64,000 nucleotides of DNA from Paenibacillus riograndensis SBR5 (GTDB lineage: Bacteria > Bacillota > Bacilli > Paenibacillales > Paenibacillaceae), in contig NZ_LN831776.1 of NCBI RefSeq assembly GCF_000981585.1, positions 3,269,187 through 3,333,186 on the forward strand, read 5' to 3'. The translations under genes and the position numbers were made by a program. Each line of letters opens with the position of its first letter. Positions within the stretch are counted from its first letter, which is position 1. Below, piece after piece: positions 26,571 to 36,710 of the stretch. Under the pieces are notes generated by a model. The model was not told where the DNA came from and ran no database searches. It was given only the letters and a program-made list of their open reading frames with translations.

Positions 26571-27383
26571 TTATTTAGGCAGCTTGGCTTCAGCAGCCCG
26601 CAGCGCAACTGTGATCTTCTGCTCCCATGCATAGGATTGCTGCCCGAAAGTGCGAAGTTCCCCCATCCGGGTATAAGCTAGTTTCATCGCCGCAGCTGCT
26701 GTGATGGCGTCTCCCGATGCAATCGCCGCTTTGTAGCGCTTGTGAGCCTCCGCGCGCTCCGTCTGTGCGGTGCTGGCGGCTTTATTCTGGGCAGTAATCA
26801 GCTTCTTGAGACTGGCAACAGGTGCCAGGGCATCTTTGGCTGGTTGTATCTTGGCTGCCGTCAGCGTCCGGGCTTCAGCAAATGCGGTATTCTTCGCCTT
26901 GACCTCGGCCCGGGCAGCAGCAGCGGCGGCCTTCAGCTTATTGCGCTTAATCTCCAGCAGGGTCGCTGACTTGAGGTTCCCTGCCTTGCGTGCTGCTGCA
27001 ATCTGTTTGCTGAGCGAAGTGTACTCCTCCAGCAGCGGCGCATGTTTCTTCTTCATGGCCTCGGCTTCTGACTTCAAGCGCTTCAGCAAGACAGAATCTA
27101 TGGTCTTCAGCTTCAGATTAATGGCGGCAAGATCGGCATTGTTCTGCTTGCGGAGCGTCTGCGTTCTCGCAGTCTCGGACTTCAGTGCCGTCTGAAGTCC
27201 GGTATAATCGCTGTAGAGATTATGGATCTCATCCAGAGCGGAGTCCCAGTCACCGGCAGCGGCAGCATACGGTGCGGGTGAGGCCAATACAAAAAGCAAT
27301 ATCAGCAGCCCTATCCATCTGCTGGACAAGCCTGCGCCGTATCTTTTTTCAGCAGCAACATATTTCCGTCTTAAATCTTTCAT
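26571..27383 (-). CDS. Secreted Ala/Lys-rich coiled-coil protein
   Basis: About 270 residues. A signal peptide with a long basic n-region is followed by LLILLFVLASPAPYAAAAG. The mature protein is almost entirely helical with heptad-like Ala, Lys and Glu patterns (LKSEAEAMKKKHAPLLEEY, AAAAARAEVKAKN). No catalytic domain is seen. AGGAG abuts the first ATG (27392), so the second, 9 bases later, is the better start. A structured leader with a terminator-like hairpin lies just upstream, suggesting control by attenuation. Confidence 0.75.
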   Translation of the reverse strand: MKDLRRKYVAAEKRYGAGLSSRWIGLLILLFVLASPAPYAAAAGDWDSALDEIHNLYSDYTGLQTALKSETARTQTLRKQNNADLAAINLKLKTIDSVLLKRLKSEAEAMKKKHAPLLEEYTSLSKQIAAARKAGNLKSATLLEIKRNKLKAAAAAARAEVKAKNTAFAEARTLTAAKIQPAKDALAPVASLKKLITAQNKAASTAQTERAEAHKRYKAAIASGDAITAAAAMKLAYTRMGELRTFGQQSYAWEQKITVALRAAEAKLPK

Positions 27384-27407
27384 AGAATTCATCTCCTATA
27401 ATAGTGT

Positions 27408-27482
27408 CGATAAGACACGCAAAAAAGCACCCCCAAGAAAGGCCCAAAGGCCTGTCCTGCGAGGTGCTTCTCCCGCTTATCG
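27408..27482 (-). promoter_or_regulatory. Structured leader/attenuator upstream of the coiled-coil gene
   Basis: Three nested helices can form on the minus strand: CGATAAG with CTTATCG (27476-27482/27408-27414), AAGCACC with GGTGCTT (27463-27469/27425-27431) and GGCC with GGCC inside. The middle stem is followed by TTTTTTG, like an intrinsic terminator, only about 40 bases before the gene. A competing stem GTGTC-GACAC uses part of the outer helix. I cannot match it to a known riboswitch. Confidence 0.55.
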
Positions 27483-27677
27483 TATGAAAATTTGTCCTTT
27501 TACTATAGCTTGAAATATATGGATAGTCAAGATAGGAAAGAACGCAGGTTCGCTTTTTCGCGCATCTTTTGCTAGTATTATGTAACTGAACCAAGAAATC
27601 TAGTAGAATGAATCTATAGTTTACAATATTGGATAATGTTCGGCACCTAGAACCAGTCGGAACAGGGAGATGACGTT

Positions 27678-28679
27678 GTGCAGCTTAGACATGTAAAAAT
27701 CCTGGGAACGGGTAAATATTTACCCTCCAGGAAGGTGACGGATGAGGAATTGGACACACTGCTCGGCACACCTGCAGGCTGGGTCAATAAAATAACTGGT
27801 GTAGGGGTGCGGCATTATGCCGGCGGGGGTGAAACGGCCTCCACCATGGGGGCAAAAGCGGCGGAAGCGGCGCTTCTGGCGGCAGGCCTCAGCTTTGCGG
27901 ATATCGATTGCCTGGTCTGTACCAGCGGAACGAAGGAGCAGCCTCTGCCGAGTACAGCCGTATTTATACAGCAGGCCATGGGACAGGAGAACTCTGGCGT
28001 GCCTGCTTTTGATATCGATTCAACCTGCCTCAGCTTTCTGGTAGGCCTGGATGTCATGTCCTATATGGTCGAAGCCGGACGGTACCGGAATGTGCTTCTG
28101 GTAGCTTCGGAGATTGCTTCAGCCGGGCTTGATTACGAAGATAAGGAGAGTGCGGCACTGTTTGGAGACGGGGCGGCTGCGGTGGTCATTGGTCCGAGCG
28201 CAGCCGGGGAGTCTTCGAAGATTCTGCACGCCTCGCTCAAAACATACAGCAGCGGCGCCCGTTACTCAGAGATTGCCGGAGGAGGCACCAGACTGCATGC
28301 CCGGAAATTCAGCAGGGAGAATGCACTGCCTTATCTTTTTCATATGGACGGACAGGCTATTTTCAGAAAAGCTTCTAAGCTCCTTCCAGAATTTTTGGAA
28401 GATATGCTGGCACAGAGCCATACGCAAATGGAGGATTTCCGTTTGGTTGTGCCCCATCAGGGAAGTGCGATGGCCATGCGGCTGCTCCGTAAAAAGCTGG
28501 GCATAGCCGAGGACAGATTCCTCGACAATACGCCGGGTCATGGCAATACCATTGCGGCTTCAATCCCGATGGGGCTGCATGAAGCGGTCAGTCAGGGGCG
28601 GGTGCAGCGGGGAGACCGCATACTGTTCATTGGAACTGCAGCCGGTCTGTCACTGGGAGGCCTGATCCTTGATTACTGA
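27678..28679 (+). CDS. Beta-ketoacyl synthase III (FabH/OleA-like), first gene of a biosynthetic operon
   Basis: 333 residues of thiolase fold. The catalytic Cys-His-Asn triad is C117 (FDIDSTCLSF), H260 (LVVPHQGS) and N290 (GHGNTIAAS). The family uses acyl-CoA or acyl-ACP and condenses it with malonyl-ACP (FabH) or with a second acyl-CoA (OleA). Since this gene begins a dedicated cluster with no ACP or malonyl-loading gene, it is likely a specialised condensing enzyme rather than the housekeeping FabH. GTG start after AGGGAG. Residues that separate FabH from OleA cannot be judged by eye. Confidence 0.88.
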   Translation: MQLRHVKILGTGKYLPSRKVTDEELDTLLGTPAGWVNKITGVGVRHYAGGGETASTMGAKAAEAALLAAGLSFADIDCLVCTSGTKEQPLPSTAVFIQQAMGQENSGVPAFDIDSTCLSFLVGLDVMSYMVEAGRYRNVLLVASEIASAGLDYEDKESAALFGDGAAAVVIGPSAAGESSKILHASLKTYSSGARYSEIAGGGTRLHARKFSRENALPYLFHMDGQAIFRKASKLLPEFLEDMLAQSHTQMEDFRLVVPHQGSAMAMRLLRKKLGIAEDRFLDNTPGHGNTIAASIPMGLHEAVSQGRVQRGDRILFIGTAAGLSLGGLILDY

Positions 28680-29898
28680 TCCTTCCGGCAGTCCGCAGGT
28701 CATGAATGTGCTCATTACCGGCGGACGGGCACCTGTGGCGCTGGAGCTCTCCCGGCTGCTGCAGGCTGGGGGGCACCGGGTGTATGCCGCAGAAAGCGCC
28801 GAATACCATTTGTGCCGCGTTTCTTCGGCAGTGGAACGAAGCTTTCGCGCCCCGCCGCCAAGGTACAACCCGGAAGCTTATATTGATCTGCTGGCAAGGC
28901 TGGTGGAAGAACTGCACATTGATGTGCTGATTCCGCTGTGCGAGGAGATTTTTTATATTTCGGCCGGTCTTGCCCGCCTCCGCGGCTGCCGCGTGCTTTC
29001 CGCAGAACGGGAGGCGCTGGCCAGGCTGCACCACAAGGGCGAGTTCATTGCCTGGGCCCGCGAACTGGGGTTAACCGTCCCCGAGACCAGGCTGCTCAGC
29101 AGTCCGGAGGAATGGAGAATCCAGACGGATGAAGCGGCACATAAAAGGGAGGCATGGGTGTACAAACCGGCGTATTCCCGCTTTGCCTCCAAAGTCATTC
29201 TGCCCCGTACGGTCAACGGGAGGCAGGAGGGAATAGGGGGCCCGCGCAGTCTTGCCGCTCCGCGCGGCATTTCATCCGCTGCACCATGGGTGGCGCAGCA
29301 GTATATCACAGGTGAGGCCATCTGCACTTACAGTGTTGTGCATCAAGGTGAGGTCATTGCACATGCGGCATACGGCAGCAGGTACCGGACCGGCAGGTCG
29401 GGAGCGAGTGTATACTTTGAGCATCTGGAGCATCCGGCGGCTTTGGACTGGGTGCAGCGCTTCAGCCGGGCTTCCGGCTTCAGCGGCCAGATCGGCTTTG
29501 ATTTCATCCAGGTGCAGGAGGGGACCTTGTATCCGATCGAGTGCAACCCGCGTGCGACCAGCGGGATTCATCTGTTCGCTGCGGAGGACGGGCTGGTGCA
29601 GGCGCTGCTGAATCCGGAGCAGCGGGCTCTGGCCGGAACCGTCAGCACGCCGCGTTCCGGCAAAAAGTCCATGCTCGCGCTTCCCATGCTCGCCTGCGCC
29701 CTGCGGCCGGGACCGGCAGGCCTGGCGGAGTGGGGGAGAGCGCTGCGCCAGGCGGAGGATGTAATCTTCCGCAAGAGTGATCCGCGCCCCTTCCGCGAGC
29801 AGCTTCGGATCATCTATCACGCCTGCCGCTTGGCCAGGCGGAACAAGATTTCGGTTACTGAAGCCCTGACTGAAGACATAGAATGGAACGGTGAATGA
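28669..29898 (+). CDS. ATP-grasp ligase of the biosynthetic operon
   Basis: 409 residues. The N-terminal Rossmann-like part (NVLITGGRAPVALELSRLLQ) leads into an ATP-grasp domain with the phosphate-binding lysine in WVYKPAYSRF, and the metal-binding tail GFDFIQVQ then PIECNPRATSGIHLF. This is the carbamoyl-phosphate-synthetase-like branch, which links a carboxylate to an amine or thiol through an acyl phosphate. The TTG start lies 8 bases after GGGAGG inside the end of the KAS III gene, an 11-base overlap. ATG 28702 is a less likely start. Confidence 0.85.
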   Translation: MITDPSGSPQVMNVLITGGRAPVALELSRLLQAGGHRVYAAESAEYHLCRVSSAVERSFRAPPPRYNPEAYIDLLARLVEELHIDVLIPLCEEIFYISAGLARLRGCRVLSAEREALARLHHKGEFIAWARELGLTVPETRLLSSPEEWRIQTDEAAHKREAWVYKPAYSRFASKVILPRTVNGRQEGIGGPRSLAAPRGISSAAPWVAQQYITGEAICTYSVVHQGEVIAHAAYGSRYRTGRSGASVYFEHLEHPAALDWVQRFSRASGFSGQIGFDFIQVQEGTLYPIECNPRATSGIHLFAAEDGLVQALLNPEQRALAGTVSTPRSGKKSMLALPMLACALRPGPAGLAEWGRALRQAEDVIFRKSDPRPFREQLRIIYHACRLARRNKISVTEALTEDIEWNGE

Positions 29899-30890
29899 TG
29901 ACTAGAGTGCTTGTAACGGGCGCAACGGGCTTTCTTGGGCGTCATGCGGTACAGAGGTTCGCAGAGCTGGGCTGGGAAGTATTCGGGCTAGGGCGGAACC
30001 TGGAGGCCGGACAGCAGATTGAAAAGGACGGGGCAGTCTTTGTATGTGAAGATTTGCGCCACACGGAAGCAGCGGCCCGCGCATGCACAGGGATGGATCT
30101 CGTCTTTCATTGTGCGGCGCTCTCCTCCCCTTGGGGTAAATACAGTGATTTTGTGGCCTGCAATGTGGAGGCTACACGCAACATAGCGGAGGGCTGCAAG
30201 CGGCACGGTGTCCCGCGCCTGATTCATATCTCCACTCCAAGCCTGTATTCCAGCCGCAAGAGCCGCTTAAGCATCCGGGAAGCAGAGCCGCTCCCGCCGA
30301 AACCGGCTAACAGCTATGCGGCAACCAAGCTTATGGCGGAGCGTGTCGTGCAGCAGGCAGCCGGAGAAGGGCTGGCGGTATTTATACTGCGGCCCCGGGC
30401 GATCTTCGGGCCAATGGACAATGCCCTGTTCCCCCGGCTTCTTGCAGCCAATCAGGGCAAGGGCGTGCCGCTTCTGGACGGCGGCACGGCCATGATTGAT
30501 GTCACCTGTGTGGAGAATGTCATCGATGCCATGCTGCTCTGCTCCAGTGCCCCGCTGTCAGCGGCCGGGCGTGCCTATAACATCACGAACGGCGAGCCGA
30601 TCCTGTTCCGGGACCTGCTTGAGCGGCTGTTTGCCCGGCTGGAGATGCCGCTGCACAGCAGGCAGCTTCCCTACCGGACTGCATACGCTCTAGCGGGACT
30701 ACTGGAAGGTGTATACAAGCTGCTGCCCTTCCTGGGCGAGCCGGTGCTCACCCGGTATTCCGCTTCGGCACTGGGGGTCTCCCAGACGCTGGATATTTCG
30801 CTGGCGCGGGAACAGCTTGGCTATCACCCCCGTGTGACTACAGATGAAGGTCTTCAATCCTTCGCAGAATGGTGGAGAGAACAGAAATGA
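29895..30890 (+). CDS. Extended-SDR NAD(P)-dependent reductase/epimerase (OleD/3-beta-HSD-like)
   Basis: 331 residues. The dinucleotide motif is VTGATGFLGRHAV, the catalytic serine lies in HISTPSLY (about residue 115) and the Y-x3-K pair in SYAATKLMAE (about 141). OleD, which reduces the 2-alkyl-3-keto acid made by OleA, belongs to the same branch, so in this operon it is a good candidate for reducing the KAS III product. It overlaps the ATP-grasp stop by ATGA. There is no signal for membrane location. Confidence 0.88.
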   Translation: MMTRVLVTGATGFLGRHAVQRFAELGWEVFGLGRNLEAGQQIEKDGAVFVCEDLRHTEAAARACTGMDLVFHCAALSSPWGKYSDFVACNVEATRNIAEGCKRHGVPRLIHISTPSLYSSRKSRLSIREAEPLPPKPANSYAATKLMAERVVQQAAGEGLAVFILRPRAIFGPMDNALFPRLLAANQGKGVPLLDGGTAMIDVTCVENVIDAMLLCSSAPLSAAGRAYNITNGEPILFRDLLERLFARLEMPLHSRQLPYRTAYALAGLLEGVYKLLPFLGEPVLTRYSASALGVSQTLDISLAREQLGYHPRVTTDEGLQSFAEWWREQK

Positions 30891-31741
30891 TAACTTCAAC
30901 TCCGGTATCGGTGTCGATCCTGTCAGCAGGGTACTGTCTGCATCCCGAGCTATTGACGCTGAAGGGCGGTACAATCAAACCCGTCGCTTTTCCAGCGGGC
31001 TATGCGCTGCTGAGGCATCCGCAGCACGGGCCGATCCTGTTCGATACAGGCTACAGTTCACGTTTCTTTGAGGAAACGGCGAAGCTGCCGGCTTCATTGT
31101 ACCGCCATATTACACCTGTAGTTTTCAAAGAGGGAGAAAGTGCCGTGGAGCGGCTCCGGGAAGCCGGCATTGCGCCGGAGGAGATCCGTTATATGGTGCT
31201 GTCCCATTTTCATGCTGACCACATCGGCGGTGTCCGGGATTTTCCCAAGGCGCAGTTTATTTATTTGCGGAAGTCATACGAGGCGGTACACCGCCTTGGC
31301 CCCATCAAGGCGCTCCGGGCCGGATTTCTTCCGGGACTGCTGCCGGAGGATTTCACTGCACGTTCCCTGCCCGTGGACGAGTATTCACCACAACGCCCGC
31401 TGCCCCCCGGATTTCCTTTCACGGAAGCTTACGATCTGCTTGGCGACGGCAGCCTGCTGGCGGTGGAGATGTCCGGCCATGCTGCGGGAATGATCGGCTT
31501 GTTTGTGTCCGGAGACGGATATGACTATCTGCTCTGTGCGGACACCGTATGGTCCAGCCGGGCCTTCCGCGAGAACCGCAGGCCGCATCCGGCAGCCGGT
31601 CTTATCATGTCTGACCGCAAGGAATACCGGCATAATTTTGACCGTTTACGGGTGATTCACGAGAATTTTCCCGGCCTGCGGATTGTGCCCAGCCACTGCC
31701 GTGAGGCACTGGCTCTATGGGGAACAGGCGGTGTCCGATGA
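30887..31741 (+). CDS. Metallo-beta-lactamase fold hydrolase (lactonase-like)
   Basis: 284 residues. All metal ligands are visible: SHFHADHIGG (about residue 110), SGHAAGM (about 200), CADTVW (about 220) and VPSHC (about 268). The layout is that of AHL lactonase-like MBL enzymes, which open lactones or cleave thioesters. In an operon with a condensing enzyme and an adenylating enzyme it may hydrolyse a lactone or thioester intermediate, taking the place of OleB. ATGA overlap with the upstream reductase gene fixes the start. Confidence 0.88.
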   Translation: MITSTPVSVSILSAGYCLHPELLTLKGGTIKPVAFPAGYALLRHPQHGPILFDTGYSSRFFEETAKLPASLYRHITPVVFKEGESAVERLREAGIAPEEIRYMVLSHFHADHIGGVRDFPKAQFIYLRKSYEAVHRLGPIKALRAGFLPGLLPEDFTARSLPVDEYSPQRPLPPGFPFTEAYDLLGDGSLLAVEMSGHAAGMIGLFVSGDGYDYLLCADTVWSSRAFRENRRPHPAAGLIMSDRKEYRHNFDRLRVIHENFPGLRIVPSHCREALALWGTGGVR

Positions 31742-33054
31742 GACGGCTGACGCGGACGCTCCGGTACTACATCCTTACCAGATGGGGACGCCGCTGGAAG
31801 GACCGGGCAGCCCTGGAGCAATGGCAGGAACGGCGGATACGGCGGCATGTGGAACGAATCCGCCGGCTATCGCCGTTTTACCGCGATCTGTGGGCGGATA
31901 TGCCGGCGGAAGAGTGGCGGCGTTTTCCCGCTATAGAAAAACAGCTCATGATGGATTATTTCGATACGCTCAACACAGCAGGAATTACCAAAGACATGGC
32001 TTTTGCCGAGGCTTATGAGGCGGAGAACAGCCGTTATTTCAAGCCGACGCTGCATGGCATTACTGTTGGACTGTCGTCGGGAACGTCGGGAAACCGCGGG
32101 ATATTCCTGGTCAGTGAACAGGAGCAGGCCTCCTGGACAGGTGCTGTATTGGCGAAGCTGCTGCCCGGAGGGCTGTGGCAGCGCGCTAAGATCGCTTTTT
32201 TTCTGCGGGCGAACAGCAATCTCTATGAGTCTGTCCGGCAAGGGCGCCTGCAGTTTCAATATTTTGATCTGCTGGAGCCGGTTCCGCAGCTGGTCGCAGG
32301 GCTGGAGCGGTACAGTCCTGACATCTGGATCGCCCCGCCGTCCATGCTCCGTATGCTCGCCGAGGCGCGGCTGTCGGGAGGCCTGACGGTTCAACCGCGC
32401 CGCCTGATCTCGGTAGCGGAAGTGCTGGACCCGCTGGACCGGGAGCATATTGAGCGGACCTTCGGCCAGACCGTTCACCAGGCTTATCAATGTACGGAGG
32501 GGTTTCTCGGCTGCACCTGTAAATACGGCATGCTGCACCTTAATGAAGATATTGTTCATATTGAAAAAGAGTATCTTGACCGTGAATCCGGGCGTTTCGT
32601 GCCGGTTGTGACAGACTTCTCAAGAAGCGTCCAGCCCATTATCCGCTACCGGCTGAATGACATTCTTACCGAATCGGCGGCTCCCTGCCCCTGCGGCTCT
32701 TTGTTTACGGCGATAGAACGGATTGAAGGGCGGTGCGATGATATTCTGTATCTGCCCCATTCGGAGAATGGCGAGCTGGTCACGCTGTTTCCCGATTTTG
32801 TCACCCGGGCTGTGCTGGCGGCATCACCGGAGATCGAGCATTACCGGGTCATTCAGCGCAGTCCGCTGGATCTGGAGATTTCGTACCGCACACGCAGAGG
32901 CAGCGCAAAGGATATAGAGTCCTTGTTGGCCGGAGAATTCTTGCGTTTGTTCACCCGTTTCAGCTGTATTCCGCCTCAGCTTCAGTTCACCGATTACAGC
33001 TTCACACCTGGAGCGGTGAAGCTGCGCCGGGTAGAAAGGAGCTGGAAGCTTTGA
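31738..33054 (+). CDS. Adenylate-forming enzyme of the PaaK/F390-synthetase type
   Basis: 438 residues. ANL-family motifs are present: the P-loop LSSGTSGNRG (about residue 115), YQCTEG (A5, about 253), the DFSR..IIRYRLND stretch (A7, about 300) and ERIEGRCDDILY (A8, about 330). A CPCG zinc-like pair lies between. The enzyme would activate a carboxylic acid as acyl-AMP and hand it to CoA, an amine or an internal hydroxyl. It is related to coenzyme F390 synthetase-like proteins, and its substrate is unknown. ATGA overlap with the MBL gene. Confidence 0.85.
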   Translation: MRRLTRTLRYYILTRWGRRWKDRAALEQWQERRIRRHVERIRRLSPFYRDLWADMPAEEWRRFPAIEKQLMMDYFDTLNTAGITKDMAFAEAYEAENSRYFKPTLHGITVGLSSGTSGNRGIFLVSEQEQASWTGAVLAKLLPGGLWQRAKIAFFLRANSNLYESVRQGRLQFQYFDLLEPVPQLVAGLERYSPDIWIAPPSMLRMLAEARLSGGLTVQPRRLISVAEVLDPLDREHIERTFGQTVHQAYQCTEGFLGCTCKYGMLHLNEDIVHIEKEYLDRESGRFVPVVTDFSRSVQPIIRYRLNDILTESAAPCPCGSLFTAIERIEGRCDDILYLPHSENGELVTLFPDFVTRAVLAASPEIEHYRVIQRSPLDLEISYRTRRGSAKDIESLLAGEFLRLFTRFSCIPPQLQFTDYSFTPGAVKLRRVERSWKL

Positions 33055-34193
33055 AGGACGGAGTGTATCTATATGACCGGGACAGCGCCCGGGAGCTGCA
33101 ATGGCCTGACACGGAATATGGCCGGTATGCACGGCAATACATTTCAGCAATGCTGGAGCATCCGGCAGAGCACTTTATCGCCAATGTGCATACAACCGTC
33201 AAGGCGGTAGTGGTTGACGGCCTGCCGATCCCCATTACCGTAAATGAAAACGAGTATGCCAATTCCTATGTCTGCTCCCCGTACACGCATTATGTCAGCT
33301 ATGCCCAAGAGGAACTGGCGTTATTAAATAACCGGCTGCTGGAGGGAACATTGGCTGTTGTTCTGCGGGGTATGGGGCTTCTGCTGCGGACTGCCCGGTT
33401 TAACAAGGTGGTCCAGGTCAACAACTGGCTGCTGTCCACCAACCTGTATCCCCCGGTGAGCCCGGATCAGCTGCTGAAAGTAATTGATTTTCTCCGCTCC
33501 GAGTTTCCCGGTTATACGGTTCTTTTGCGCTCCCTCAGCAAGGAGACTTCCGGTGCTCTCCTGGAGGCCCTGGACGGATATGGCTGTAAATGGGTGCCGA
33601 GCCGCCAGATTTATCTGCTGCAGCATCCCGCAGGGTCCAAGGCGAAATGGCTGGTCAAACGTGACCGGGCTTTGCTGGACAAGCATGGCTACACGGTTGA
33701 CCCGCCCGGGCAGATTACGGAGGAGGATATCCCCCGCATTGTGGAGCTGTACGAACTGCTATATATACATAAATATTCGAAGCATAACCCGCAGTTTACG
33801 GAGGCCTACATCCGGCTGGCGCTGGAGAAGCGGACACTTTATATATACGGGCTGCGCAAAAACGGCAGGCTTGACGCCGTACTCGGCTTCTACAGCCGTG
33901 AAGGTGCGATGACAGCGCCGCTGTTCGGCTATGATACCTCACTGCCCCAGCCGCTCGGCCTGTACCGGATGCTGTCGGCCGTACTGATCGATCTTGCCGG
34001 GAGCAGGGGGGAGCTGCTGCATGAGAGCTCCGGGGTAGGGCAGTTCAAGCGCAACCGCGGAGCGGTGGGGGCCACAGAACTGTCAGCTGTCTTTGACCAA
34101 GGCACATCCTGGCTGAACCGCTGCAGCTGGTCCTTTTTGGGCTGGCTGCTCCGGCGGGTGGGCATCCCGTTGATCCAGAAGCTGAAGCTGTAG
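33051..34193 (+). CDS. GNAT-like acyltransferase of the biosynthetic operon
   Basis: 380 residues. The N-terminal third has no recognised fold. The C-terminal part resembles a GNAT/FemAB-type transferase: ITEEDIPRIVELYELLYIHK, LYIYGLRKNGRLDAVLGFY, then LHESSGVGQFKRNRGA as the presumed acyl-CoA loop. It may transfer the acyl group made by the operon. It starts with TTG in a TTGA overlap with the adenylating enzyme. No membrane segment is seen except a weakly hydrophobic C-terminus (WSFLGWLLRRVGIPLI) that could attach to the membrane. Confidence 0.7.
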   Translation: MKDGVYLYDRDSARELQWPDTEYGRYARQYISAMLEHPAEHFIANVHTTVKAVVVDGLPIPITVNENEYANSYVCSPYTHYVSYAQEELALLNNRLLEGTLAVVLRGMGLLLRTARFNKVVQVNNWLLSTNLYPPVSPDQLLKVIDFLRSEFPGYTVLLRSLSKETSGALLEALDGYGCKWVPSRQIYLLQHPAGSKAKWLVKRDRALLDKHGYTVDPPGQITEEDIPRIVELYELLYIHKYSKHNPQFTEAYIRLALEKRTLYIYGLRKNGRLDAVLGFYSREGAMTAPLFGYDTSLPQPLGLYRMLSAVLIDLAGSRGELLHESSGVGQFKRNRGAVGATELSAVFDQGTSWLNRCSWSFLGWLLRRVGIPLIQKLKL

Positions 34194-34249
34194 TACATTT
34201 GTTTTAAGCTGAAATTTTGGGAGCGCAAAACGATGAAGAAGGTGCAATT

Positions 34250-35116
34250 ATGAACAGCAAAAACGGGCAGAACGCCGATACAATCGCCCTCATCACCGGG
34301 ACCTCTTCCGGTTTCGGGCTGCTGACGGCGCTGGCTCTGGCACGCCAAGGCTGCCGGGTTGCAGCCACCATGCGGGACATAAGCCGCCAAGGGGAGCTGC
34401 TGCGCCAGGCCGGAGAAGCCGGATTAGCGGAGCGGATACATGTGATAAGTCTCGATGTCACGGACTCGGCGTCCATTCAATCGGCTGTTGCGGCCGTTCT
34501 GGACAAGTTCGGACGAGTGGATGTGCTGGTCAATAATGCCGGTTTTGCCGTAGGCGGCTTTGTGGAAGAAGTGGGCATGGAGGAATGGCGGCGGCAGATG
34601 GATACGAACTTTTTTGGGCTGATTGAAGTCACTAAGGCCGTGCTTCCTGTCATGCGGCGTCAGCGTGCGGGCCTGATCGTCAATATCAGCAGTGTCAGCG
34701 GGTTGACCGGATTTCCCGGCTACGCTCCATATGCTGCTTCCAAATACGCCGTGGAGGGCTTTAGCGAGAGTCTGCGCCAGGAGGTGCTGCCGTTTGGCAT
34801 CCGGGTCGTGCTGGTGGAGCCCGCCTCTTTCCGTACCCCGATCTGGGATAAAGGGATGGAGGGGATGCACACCAGCGTCAACTCGCCGTATCAGGAGCAG
34901 CTTGCCCAAGTACTGCGGTATTCCCGGATGAGCGCCGAGACTGCACCCGATCCGGAGCAGGTTGCCGGGCTGATTGCACGGATCACTGCGATGAAGGCAC
35001 CCCGGCTGCGCTATCCTGTCGGCAAAGGCTCCCGCCTGCTAACGATCGGCAAAACGCTGCTGCCCTGGAAGGTTTTTGAAGGGATTATTGCCAGCTCGCT
35101 CAAAAAAATGAAATAA
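34250..35116 (+). CDS. Short-chain dehydrogenase/reductase, last gene of the operon
   Basis: 288 residues. The classical SDR motifs are TGTSSGFG (residue 13 onward), NNAG, the serine in NISSVSG and YAASK (catalytic Tyr and Lys about 163-167). The sequence after the active site (VVLVEPASFRTPIWDKG) fits reductases of keto lipids. It comes 56 bases after the acyltransferase gene with a weak GAAGG site, probably still in the same transcript. It provides a second reductase for the pathway. Confidence 0.88.
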   Translation: MNSKNGQNADTIALITGTSSGFGLLTALALARQGCRVAATMRDISRQGELLRQAGEAGLAERIHVISLDVTDSASIQSAVAAVLDKFGRVDVLVNNAGFAVGGFVEEVGMEEWRRQMDTNFFGLIEVTKAVLPVMRRQRAGLIVNISSVSGLTGFPGYAPYAASKYAVEGFSESLRQEVLPFGIRVVLVEPASFRTPIWDKGMEGMHTSVNSPYQEQLAQVLRYSRMSAETAPDPEQVAGLIARITAMKAPRLRYPVGKGSRLLTIGKTLLPWKVFEGIIASSLKKMK

Positions 35117-35157
35117 TGGATGATAGGATCTGGCTGAATGGAATGGAGGTGTGCTTA

Positions 35158-35559
35158 ATGCCGGGTACGGTAGGACTGCATATTTGCTTTGATAAGCGCG
35201 GCCGCGAGATTGAAGTTCTGGATGTGACACCGGTGGCGCAGGGCAAATACCGTATTGAAGAAACGCCGATTTTCAATCCGTGCATTACCCTTGGGGATAT
35301 TATTAGAGTCGAGGAAAAGCAGGGAATTGCGTATTATGTGGAGACGGTGCAGAAATCACGTTATGTCAGATATGCCTGGCTGCTGAGCAAAGAGGCGGCA
35401 GCTTCGCAGGAAATTCATGAGTTCAAGCGGCGGATAACAGAACATAAGGGCAGATGGGAGCAGATCTTCGGCGGGCTGCTGGTGATCCATCTTTCCAAGC
35501 ATTCCGGGGTTGATGTAGAAGCCGAAATGGCCCTGATTCTGAAACGTTTTGAAATTTAA
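35158..35559 (+). CDS. DUF4265-like hypothetical protein
   Basis: About 133 residues. The stretch around IEETPIFNPCITLGDIIRVEE then YYVETVQKSRYVRY resembles the DUF4265 pattern, with moderate certainty. The frame starts at 35116, sharing one base with the SDR stop, but TGGAGGTG places translation at ATG 35158. No signal peptide or membrane segment. It may be a trailing gene of the biosynthetic operon. Confidence 0.6.
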   Translation: MPGTVGLHICFDKRGREIEVLDVTPVAQGKYRIEETPIFNPCITLGDIIRVEEKQGIAYYVETVQKSRYVRYAWLLSKEAAASQEIHEFKRRITEHKGRWEQIFGGLLVIHLSKHSGVDVEAEMALILKRFEI

Positions 35560-35588
35560 TCCGAGATGGACCGAGAGGTGGCAGTAAA

Positions 35589-36086
35589 ATGAAAAAATTT
35601 CTGAAGCAGTGGGTACCGAGCATAGCCATCGGTATTGTTTTGTCTTTGTTTATCCGTACATATGTAGCTGAAGCCATGAGGGTCCCAACCGGCTCTATGA
35701 TTCCGACGATCCAAATCAACGACCGGCTGGTTGTGGAGAAAATGCTCTGGCTGACCTCGCTGAAGCATGGCGATATCGTAGTGTTCAATCCGCCGGTACC
35801 TGGCGATGAGCAGAAGAAATATGTCAAACGCCTCATGGGGCTGCCGGGAGATACCCTGGAGATCAAAGACGGGGCCTTGTACCGAAATGGAGAACAGGTC
35901 GATGAGCCGTACCTTCAGGAGAAGATGAACTACAGGTTCGGGCCGGTCACGGTCCCCGCAGACCACTACTTTTTTCTGGGCGATAACCGCAATACAAGCT
36001 ATGACGCCCATCTGTGGAGCACTCCATTTGTAGCCAAGGATAAGCTGATCGGCAAAGTTCTGCTGGATGTTAATGATCTTTTCTAA
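35589..36086 (+). CDS. lepB: Type I signal peptidase
   Basis: 165 residues with a single N-terminal membrane helix (PSIAIGIVLSLFI) and the protease domain outside. The catalytic serine is S36 in PTGSMIPT and the lysine K80 in KRLMGLPGD. The substrate-binding box FLGDNRNTSYDAHLW is intact. It removes signal peptides of exported proteins. GAGAGGTGG precedes ATG. The last four bases overlap the convergent Dabb gene. Confidence 0.92.
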   Translation: MKKFLKQWVPSIAIGIVLSLFIRTYVAEAMRVPTGSMIPTIQINDRLVVEKMLWLTSLKHGDIVVFNPPVPGDEQKKYVKRLMGLPGDTLEIKDGALYRNGEQVDEPYLQEKMNYRFGPVTVPADHYFFLGDNRNTSYDAHLWSTPFVAKDKLIGKVLLDVNDLF

Positions 36087-36385
36087 AAAACAGGGTAATC
36101 CACAACTACGACATTCTCAATGATTCCTTCCAGCAGTCCTACAAAATGTTGATGAGCCGGATGTGGTCCATACTTGCGCAGGGCTTCCTGATCACTAAAG
36201 GTCACGCGAAGCCCCAGCGTATATCCATGGATGTTCTCCGTTTCCTCCGTCTCGTTCACACCTGCCGTAAGCTCCACAATCCCCGGAATGGAATCCTTCA
36301 GCGCCAGAAGCGTCTGCACCAGCTGCTCTCCGTTGCCGGGCTTATACTGCTCATTAAATCTAAAAACAACAAGATGCTCATACAT
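36083..36385 (-). CDS. Dabb (stress-responsive A/B barrel) domain protein
   Basis: 100 residues. The Dabb pattern is complete: HLVVFRFNE, SIPGIVELTAGVNE, YTLGLRVTFSDQEALRKYGPHPAH and a C-terminal VVVDY. The dimeric alpha/beta barrel occurs in stress proteins and in small cyclases; no role is clear here. GGGAGG precedes the ATG. Confidence 0.88.
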   Translation of the reverse strand: MYEHLVVFRFNEQYKPGNGEQLVQTLLALKDSIPGIVELTAGVNETEETENIHGYTLGLRVTFSDQEALRKYGPHPAHQHFVGLLEGIIENVVVVDYPVF

Positions 36386-36480
36386 GGTTTGGCATCCTCC
36401 CTTTTTTTATTTAGATTATAGCTGCATAACCTGTTCAAGTATACTGCTCCGTCATTCCGATTCGTGAAAGGAAACACACC

Positions 36481-36710
36481 ATGCAGGACCAATTACCTGT
36501 ATCCCGGATCAAAAGTCTGCTCAGAGCATCCAATCCATCCAAATCGACGGGCCAGTTGTGGGCATTAAGCCTATAGGCAACAGAATTGTCCCCATCCGCC
36601 TAAGCTTCCGTTTTATCGATGACCGTGAGCAGGCGATGAAGCAGCTGACCCGCTGGGCAGAAGAGAATAGAGTCAAGCTGACCTACAAAAGATTTGTAAA
36701 ATGGATGTAG
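36481..36710 (+). pseudogene. Frameshifted remnant of a small protein
   Basis: From ATG 36481 the frame reads MQDQLPVSRIKSLL and then breaks. A second frame continues as IQIDGPVVGIKPIGNR, IVPIRLSFRFIDDREQ and NRVKLTYKRFVKWM before a stop. Both halves have codon use like real genes, so a one-base indel near 36525 probably broke a gene of about 75 codons. I do not recognise the family. A third scrap (VVWERDFNHIVALEDYRL) at 36740-36800 is probably another piece of decayed coding sequence. Confidence 0.45.

Follow-up and report, generated by a model that had tools for sequence, protein, structure and literature searches.

What can a bacterium make with a condensing enzyme, a reductase, a hydrolase and an acid-activating enzyme encoded side by side? 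The question is raised by a locus of Paenibacillus riograndensis SBR5, where seven genes on the + strand run head to tail between positions 27678 and 35116 of the window, the 64,000-nucleotide stretch of DNA analysed here. The window lies in a genome contig of 7.92 Mb held in a single piece, and its host is a Paenibacillus close to P. graminis, the species that supplies the nearest named relative of the condensing enzyme (96% identical). Our best reading, which we hold tentatively, is that the operon encodes a lipid-type pathway that in Paenibacillus would end in an amino-acid-capped hydroxy-acyl product. More tentatively still, we propose that four of the genes (KAS, OLED, MBL and F390 in the list below) form an unrecognised, patchily spread module for a single new class of lipid, present in at least four bacterial phyla and in roughly an eighth of complete E. 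coli genomes, with a swappable polar end: amino acids in Paenibacillus and some Cyanobacteriota, a sugar in Streptococcus and Fusobacterium, sulfate in Rhodobacterales, and hydroxylated or unsaturated chains in E. coli.

A conserved seven-gene operon

The genes, with the short names used from here on, are:

27678..28679, + strand: KAS III condensing enzyme (KAS); GTG start, Cys-His-Asn triad intact, Leu in place of the OleA glutamate
28669..29898, + strand: ATP-grasp ligase (GRASP); TTG start, E291, N293 and R295 invariant in 37 sequences
29895..30890, + strand: extended short-chain dehydrogenase, OleD-like (OLED); Y141 and K145 intact
30887..31741, + strand: metallo-beta-lactamase-fold hydrolase (MBL); HxHxDH at residue 113 of the longest open reading frame, 30869-31741
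31738..33054, + strand: F390 synthetase-related adenylate-forming enzyme of family TIGR02304 (F390; PaaK-type); longest open reading frame 31717-33054
33051..34193, + strand: tandem-GNAT protein of 380 amino acids (GNAT); TTG start, predicted fold of aminoacyl-tRNA-dependent transferases
34250..35116, + strand: short-chain dehydrogenase of the PRK06914 subfamily (SDR); longest open reading frame 34217-35116

A reading made earlier from the sequence alone (the sequence-only reading) had described seven genes in one direction, and both the reading frames and their junctions are borne out: there are overlaps of 11, 4, 4, 4 and 4 bases and one 56-base gap, counted from internal ATG starts for MBL (30887), F390 (31738) and SDR (34250), whose longest frames begin further upstream (30869, 31717 and 34217). 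The seven genes are one operon. G+C content per kilobase is 0.56-0.62 over 28-35 kb, against 0.46-0.55 in the flanking kilobases measured.

How well is this arrangement kept elsewhere? A genome scan with an alignment of F390 gave at least 560 encoded relatives in at least 591 stretches, from which we kept the best 80 loci, ranked by likeness to Paenibacillus. These are mostly Paenibacillus, along with Cohnella, Brevibacillus, members of what we take to be the Thermoactinomycetaceae, and two Calothrix. Around the anchoring F390, tblastn matches were found for OLED in 79 loci, KAS in 78, GRASP in 78, MBL in 77, SDR in 64 and GNAT in 51. In 76 of the 80 loci the five core genes (KAS, GRASP, OLED, MBL and F390) share a strand and keep their order within a span of 6.5 kb, a conservation beyond chance. 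This upholds the earlier view of the operon as one unit, and the neighbourhood that the sequence-only reading had proposed to look for in other genomes is kept there. All five give unbroken matches covering 70% or more of their length in 70 of the loci, and the other ten fall short for at least one core gene. Twenty stretches of related genomes, which overlap partly with the genomes of the 80 and are not independent of them, hold KAS, GRASP, OLED and F390 in every case, MBL in 19, GNAT in 17 and SDR in 12. Gene combinations tallied from picked open reading frames are undercounts, as the picking merges or loses some genes. The catalytic residues that the sequence-only reading saw intact in KAS, MBL, the short-chain dehydrogenases and the adenylate-forming enzyme are kept in the window, and almost all relatives compared have them too (for YxxxK, and for the E-x-N-x-R of GRASP, the check across relatives was for the pattern anywhere in the protein).

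The distribution is patchy: a strong F390 match (E<=1e-80) was found in 38 of 150 relatives, own genome excluded, and 19 of the 38 belong to the same genus. TIGR02304 occurs in 9 of 398 Bacillota genomes, that of the window included, and, for the phylum to which Calothrix belongs, in 7 of 194. In three of the ten loci that fall short, all from Brevibacillus (L080, L083, L084), OLED and MBL match only as fragments covering 21-66% of the query, so the pathway there may have changed or be in decay. In other relatives F390 genes carry internal stop codons (G102:C2, G110:C1) or lie in two separate pieces (G136:C1), and in some of these the pathway may be decaying. Distances for KAS, OLED, MBL and F390 correlate with r of 0.82-0.94 (41 of 84 complete loci after thinning), a figure to which we give little weight, with shared species ancestry uncontrolled.

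The condensing enzyme

KAS matches ACP_syn_III_C in Pfam (90.3 bits) and passes the PRK07204 model of beta-ketoacyl-ACP synthase III (434.9 bits, cut-off 402; the E. coli copy, at 333.4, falls below). It fails the fabH model TIGR00747 (246.7 of 292.1 bits), yet passes the broad PRK09352 model (261.4 of 249). Across the cassette the triad is kept, with Cys in 103 of 103 sequences and His and Asn in 102, the remaining row (L182) being short. At the OleA glutamate site, 53 of the 103 carry Leu and 50 Ile, the window included, and none carries Glu.

For the KAS tree we used 46 rows: 34 cassette sequences, hand-picked for spread from about 100, and 12 others. The 34 fall on one side of a branch (96/82), beside CorB and MxnB (joint group 98/97) and apart from FabH, two FabH-like copies from the same genome included; they lie outside a branch of six FabH-type rows (98/97). 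OleA is a single row whose position is unsure because its branch is long (4.74). The best-scoring solved relatives are again MxnB and CorB, and FabH structures match better than OleA. A housekeeping FabH identity is thus ruled out by the TIGR00747 score together with the separate branch, in agreement with the sequence-only reading, which had set the tree as its test. Its label 'OleA-like' is not supported: we reject membership of the OleA family on the missing glutamate, and the branch adjoins MxnB/CorB. A search of 199 sampled Bacillota genomes with NF006720, an OleA-like model, returned no match at E<=1e-60, and the controls were also silent, so that this search does not establish absence.

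The identity of this one residue bears on chemistry. All aligned OleA proteins, two excepted, carry Glu117 followed by Pro, according to PMC7064751. In PMC4578411, the matching change in PpyS (E105A) is reported to abolish product; MxnB and CorB have Val at this position, and are placed inside the FabH clade; and it is suggested that their alpha-carbon, adjoining two carbonyls, may lose its proton without such a base. With no glutamate in the cassette KAS, this precedent therefore points to a doubly activated partner (malonyl or 3-ketoacyl). As the sequence-only reading had noted for carrier proteins, the operon contains none: all 55 PP-binding matches in the genome fall outside it. A free acyl-carrier protein could still serve KAS.

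The other enzymes

OLED matches Epimerase (131.5 bits), and its best NCBIfam match is OleD, at 242.1 of the 580 bits required (146.1 of 580 for the E. coli copy), which does not allow the earlier 'OleD-like' to be taken as a true OleD. MBL matches Lactamase_B (59.5 bits) and reaches at best 86 of 390 bits against models of acyl-homoserine-lactone (AHL) lactonases, far below their cut-offs; the family search of the seven proteins returned no match to an alpha/beta-hydrolase of the OleB type. F390 scores 506.5 bits against TIGR02304 (cut-off 251.9), with G122, T123 and G125 of the nucleotide loop in 109 of 109 sequences and the C-terminal Lys, K435, in 108, one row being gapped there.

The remaining three proteins are GRASP, GNAT and SDR. 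GRASP matches ATP-grasp_3 narrowly (24.8 bits, cut-off 23.2), and shares both its predicted fold and the E-x-N-x-R motif with PylC and L-amino-acid ligases at 13-17% identity; GAR synthetase, a CPS-like protein and PurK, ATP-grasp enzymes that include those of the purine pathway, match equally well. In some relatives a second, diverged ATP-grasp gene follows directly after F390 (L131:11335-12645 in Paenibacillus chitinolyticus; also L047 and L052), hinting at a longer amino-acid end. The GNAT protein has no Pfam or NCBIfam match at E<=0.001. Its predicted structure is a tandem GNAT whose fold is nearest the aminoacyl-tRNA-dependent transferases Sbb17, FemX and MprF (7-14% identity; for MprF the match covers the soluble part only). 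The proposal of the sequence-only reading that the ATP-grasp and GNAT proteins form a conjugating module fits these predicted folds, with the amendment that the second would be a tandem rather than a plain GNAT. SDR matches adh_short (189 bits) and PRK06914 (383 bits, cut-off 320). Its score against 3-ketodihydrosphingosine reductase (220.9 bits, cut-off 400) prompted us to consider a sphingolipid route, which we dropped, as no pyridoxal-phosphate-dependent synthase family stands among the matches listed for the seven proteins.

The core recurs in other phyla with other neighbours

Two Cyanobacteriota genomes (L206 and L209) carry KAS-GRASP-OLED-MBL-F390-GNAT in the order of the window, at 43-55% and 32-44% identity. 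They are two of six stretches from the phylum of Calothrix; the others hold MBL-F390-GNAT (L207), MBL-F390 (L208), OLED-F390 (L210) or F390 alone (L205), and L207 and L208 start near a contig end. In the two Calothrix the genes are divided between loci, with KAS-GRASP together in one (L161, L162) and, at another place (L132), F390 accompanied by OLED, MBL and GNAT; in Calothrix L123 F390 stands alone. TIGR02304 also occurs outside the cassette, in Bacillota loci without KAS or OLED nearby (L153, L154; 34-35% identity to the window protein).

A smaller core without the ATP-grasp gene recurs in Streptococcus, Fusobacterium, several Pseudomonadota and E. coli, beside other finishing genes. In the genus read as Streptococcus, TIGR02304 is found in 27 of 98 genomes, and all ten stretches inspected from these 27 carry OLED-MBL-F390-KAS (the KAS frame is short in L182). 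Five of the ten also hold a glycosyltransferase like that of L149 (Glyco_tran_28_C, EryCIII-like_C; MGT 63.6 of 260 bits), and one holds ATP-grasp and GNAT genes. In Fusobacterium, a case from plasmid records, an SDR and a Glyco_transf_21 protein lie upstream of the core; named carriers among oral groups are S. oralis, S. infantis and Fusobacterium nucleatum. On plasmid records, the core is accompanied by a divergent sulfotransferase and a TetR regulator in Ketogulonicigenium and Paracoccus; by ATP-grasp, GNAT and a Rieske-like piece in Paraburkholderia; by GNAT, a Rieske protein and an opposed ATP-grasp gene in Shinella; and by ATP-grasp in Pontibacillus. It is also found on a plasmid record of a Pseudomonas, and on one of P. 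amygdali KAS, OLED and MBL lie together with F390 about 15 kb off. Phage records gave two weak MBL matches. Rieske-type proteins adjoin cassette genes in Calothrix (L161:10437-11480, judged from the start of the sequence) and in Shinella (L191:10315-11304; PF00355), suggesting an oxygenase step in some versions of the cassette.

The E. coli version is a seven-gene island, KAS-OLED-MBL-F390-PAP2-fatty-acid hydroxylase-fatty-acid desaturase, placed between the narI and tRNA-Tyr genes (L193:5001-11882; L183:7149-14030). Of 5426 complete genomes, 672 have a match to it, which in 671 spans 80% or more of the island, and 671 of its 673 places are chromosomal; the KE48 'plasmid' that holds it is probably a piece of chromosome, because narGHJI, galU and hns are also on it. 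The hydroxylase has one NCBIfam match at E<=1e-8, to OlsE of ornithine-lipid modification (66.6 bits, cut-off 475), and the window operon has no such gene. The finishing genes of E. coli are lipid genes, and nothing else hints so strongly at a lipid as the product of the core. Taken across these groups, the pattern suggests that one shared module builds the chain and that its end groups are interchangeable.

What the cassette may make

The scheme that follows, with every substrate, the order of its steps and its product, is one that we infer from gene content and order, intact residues, kinship and folds. KAS would condense a fatty acyl thioester with a doubly activated partner, a malonyl- or 3-ketoacyl-thioester; we choose such a partner since the enzyme has no counterpart of the glutamate with which OleA and PpyS take a proton from a plain fatty acyl chain. 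OLED would then reduce the beta-keto product to a beta-hydroxy product, MBL would release the acid from a thioester or lactone, and F390 would adenylate the freed acid. These four steps would be the shared core, to which other bacteria attach different end groups; in Paenibacillus, GRASP and the FemX/MprF-like tandem GNAT would attach one or more amino acids, and SDR would make a last redox change.

Could the core instead be a known pathway with swapped parts? OleA, OleD, OleC and OleB roles correspond one to one with the four core genes, and the F390-type enzyme and OleC belong to the same broad superfamily. On such an Ole-type route, KAS would join two fatty acyl-CoAs head to head, OLED would reduce the product, F390 would close a beta-lactone as OleC does, and MBL would open or remove it in the manner of OleB. 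Both systems do bring together, in a single operon, a KAS III and a hydrolase with an extended SDR-type reductase and an adenylate-forming enzyme, several groups carry the four core genes without ATP-grasp and GNAT, and OleD is the best NCBIfam match of OLED. The parts themselves differ: the glutamate that PMC7064751 assigns to all but two aligned OleA proteins (as Glu117-Pro) is absent from all 103 cassette enzymes, KAS adjoins MxnB/CorB in the tree, OLED is far below the OleD cut-off, an MBL fold stands for OleB and TIGR02304 for OleC, and ATP-grasp and tandem-GNAT proteins are added. We therefore regard this route, the one taken by the sequence-only reading, as quite unlikely; nothing in the data shows an olefin or beta-lactone product.

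The kinship to MxnB/CorB, which share with the cassette KAS a sister branch and a non-acidic residue at the glutamate site, raises a different prospect, that KAS makes an alpha-pyrone or similar small ring which the other enzymes modify; the product would then be a diffusible signal or antibiotic and not a lipid of the membrane. The likeness of MBL to AHL lactonases, low as its score is, and a patchy distribution of the kind common for secondary metabolites would suit it. However, MxnB and CorB join polyketide chains (PMC4578411), whereas the cassette operon has neither a polyketide synthase (PKS) gene nor a PP-binding carrier domain, and in other phyla the cassette has genes for PAP2, a fatty-acid hydroxylase and a fatty-acid desaturase among its neighbours; we consider this reading unlikely. 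It is also improbable that KAS is an ordinary FabH-like primer for special fatty acids which the operon trims and activates for an envelope polymer. The FabH-type triad and the better match to FabH than to OleA structures fit this idea, and an F390-type enzyme could activate free fatty acids, but KAS lies on a branch separate from the two FabH-like copies of its own genome, and passes PRK07204 while failing TIGR00747; that genome also has, about 2 kb from a match to acyl-carrier protein, a paralogue resembling FabH. The lipid-type pathway with an exchangeable end thus remains the reading that we favour.

Published mentions concern the activating enzyme. An F390 synthetase gene has been suggested for glycerol attachment in Desulfotalea (PMC2649909), and 'F390 synthetase' is also mentioned in PMC9823363, PMC5467263 and PMC5501837; the passages on it in these four papers do not describe this gene set. 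In PMC9823363 a mutant-screen table lists a kiwifruit Pseudomonas transposon mutant in a gene annotated 'Coenzyme F390 synthetase', known there by that annotation. In line with the sequence-only reading, which had called the operon uncharacterised, we found no paper on the cassette and no matching pathway in the open-access literature, a coverage that leaves out most subscription journals.

Sequences flanking the operon

Three further features border the seven genes:

27596..27625, + strand: upstream element, AAATCTAGTAGAAT-N5-TATAGTTTACA, a block aligned between the window and seven close Paenibacillus relatives
35116..35559: DUF4265 protein (29.8 bits, cut-off 27), whose first base is the final one of the SDR stop codon
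35589-36086: signal peptidase I (Peptidase_S26), downstream of the DUF4265 gene

The 30-base pattern of the upstream element has one site in its own 7.9 Mb genome with up to 3 mismatches allowed, and the element is probably a promoter or operator. A sigma-70 scan of 27200-36500 was uninformative (4 sites against 5.1 expected). The DUF4265 and signal peptidase I genes each stand beside the cassette in 7 of the 80 loci, and DUF4265 is for this reason not counted as an eighth member.

Significance

Conserved enzymes with intact active sites are found in Bacillota, Cyanobacteriota, Fusobacteriota and Pseudomonadota, for which the open-access literature searched gave no published product. If the proposed reading is true, a whole class of bacterial lipid has been overlooked, perhaps since the cassette has no PKS, nonribosomal peptide synthetase or carrier gene. 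It is the comparison across phyla that divides the cassette in two, one half fixed and building the chain, the other supplying the end group and open to exchange.

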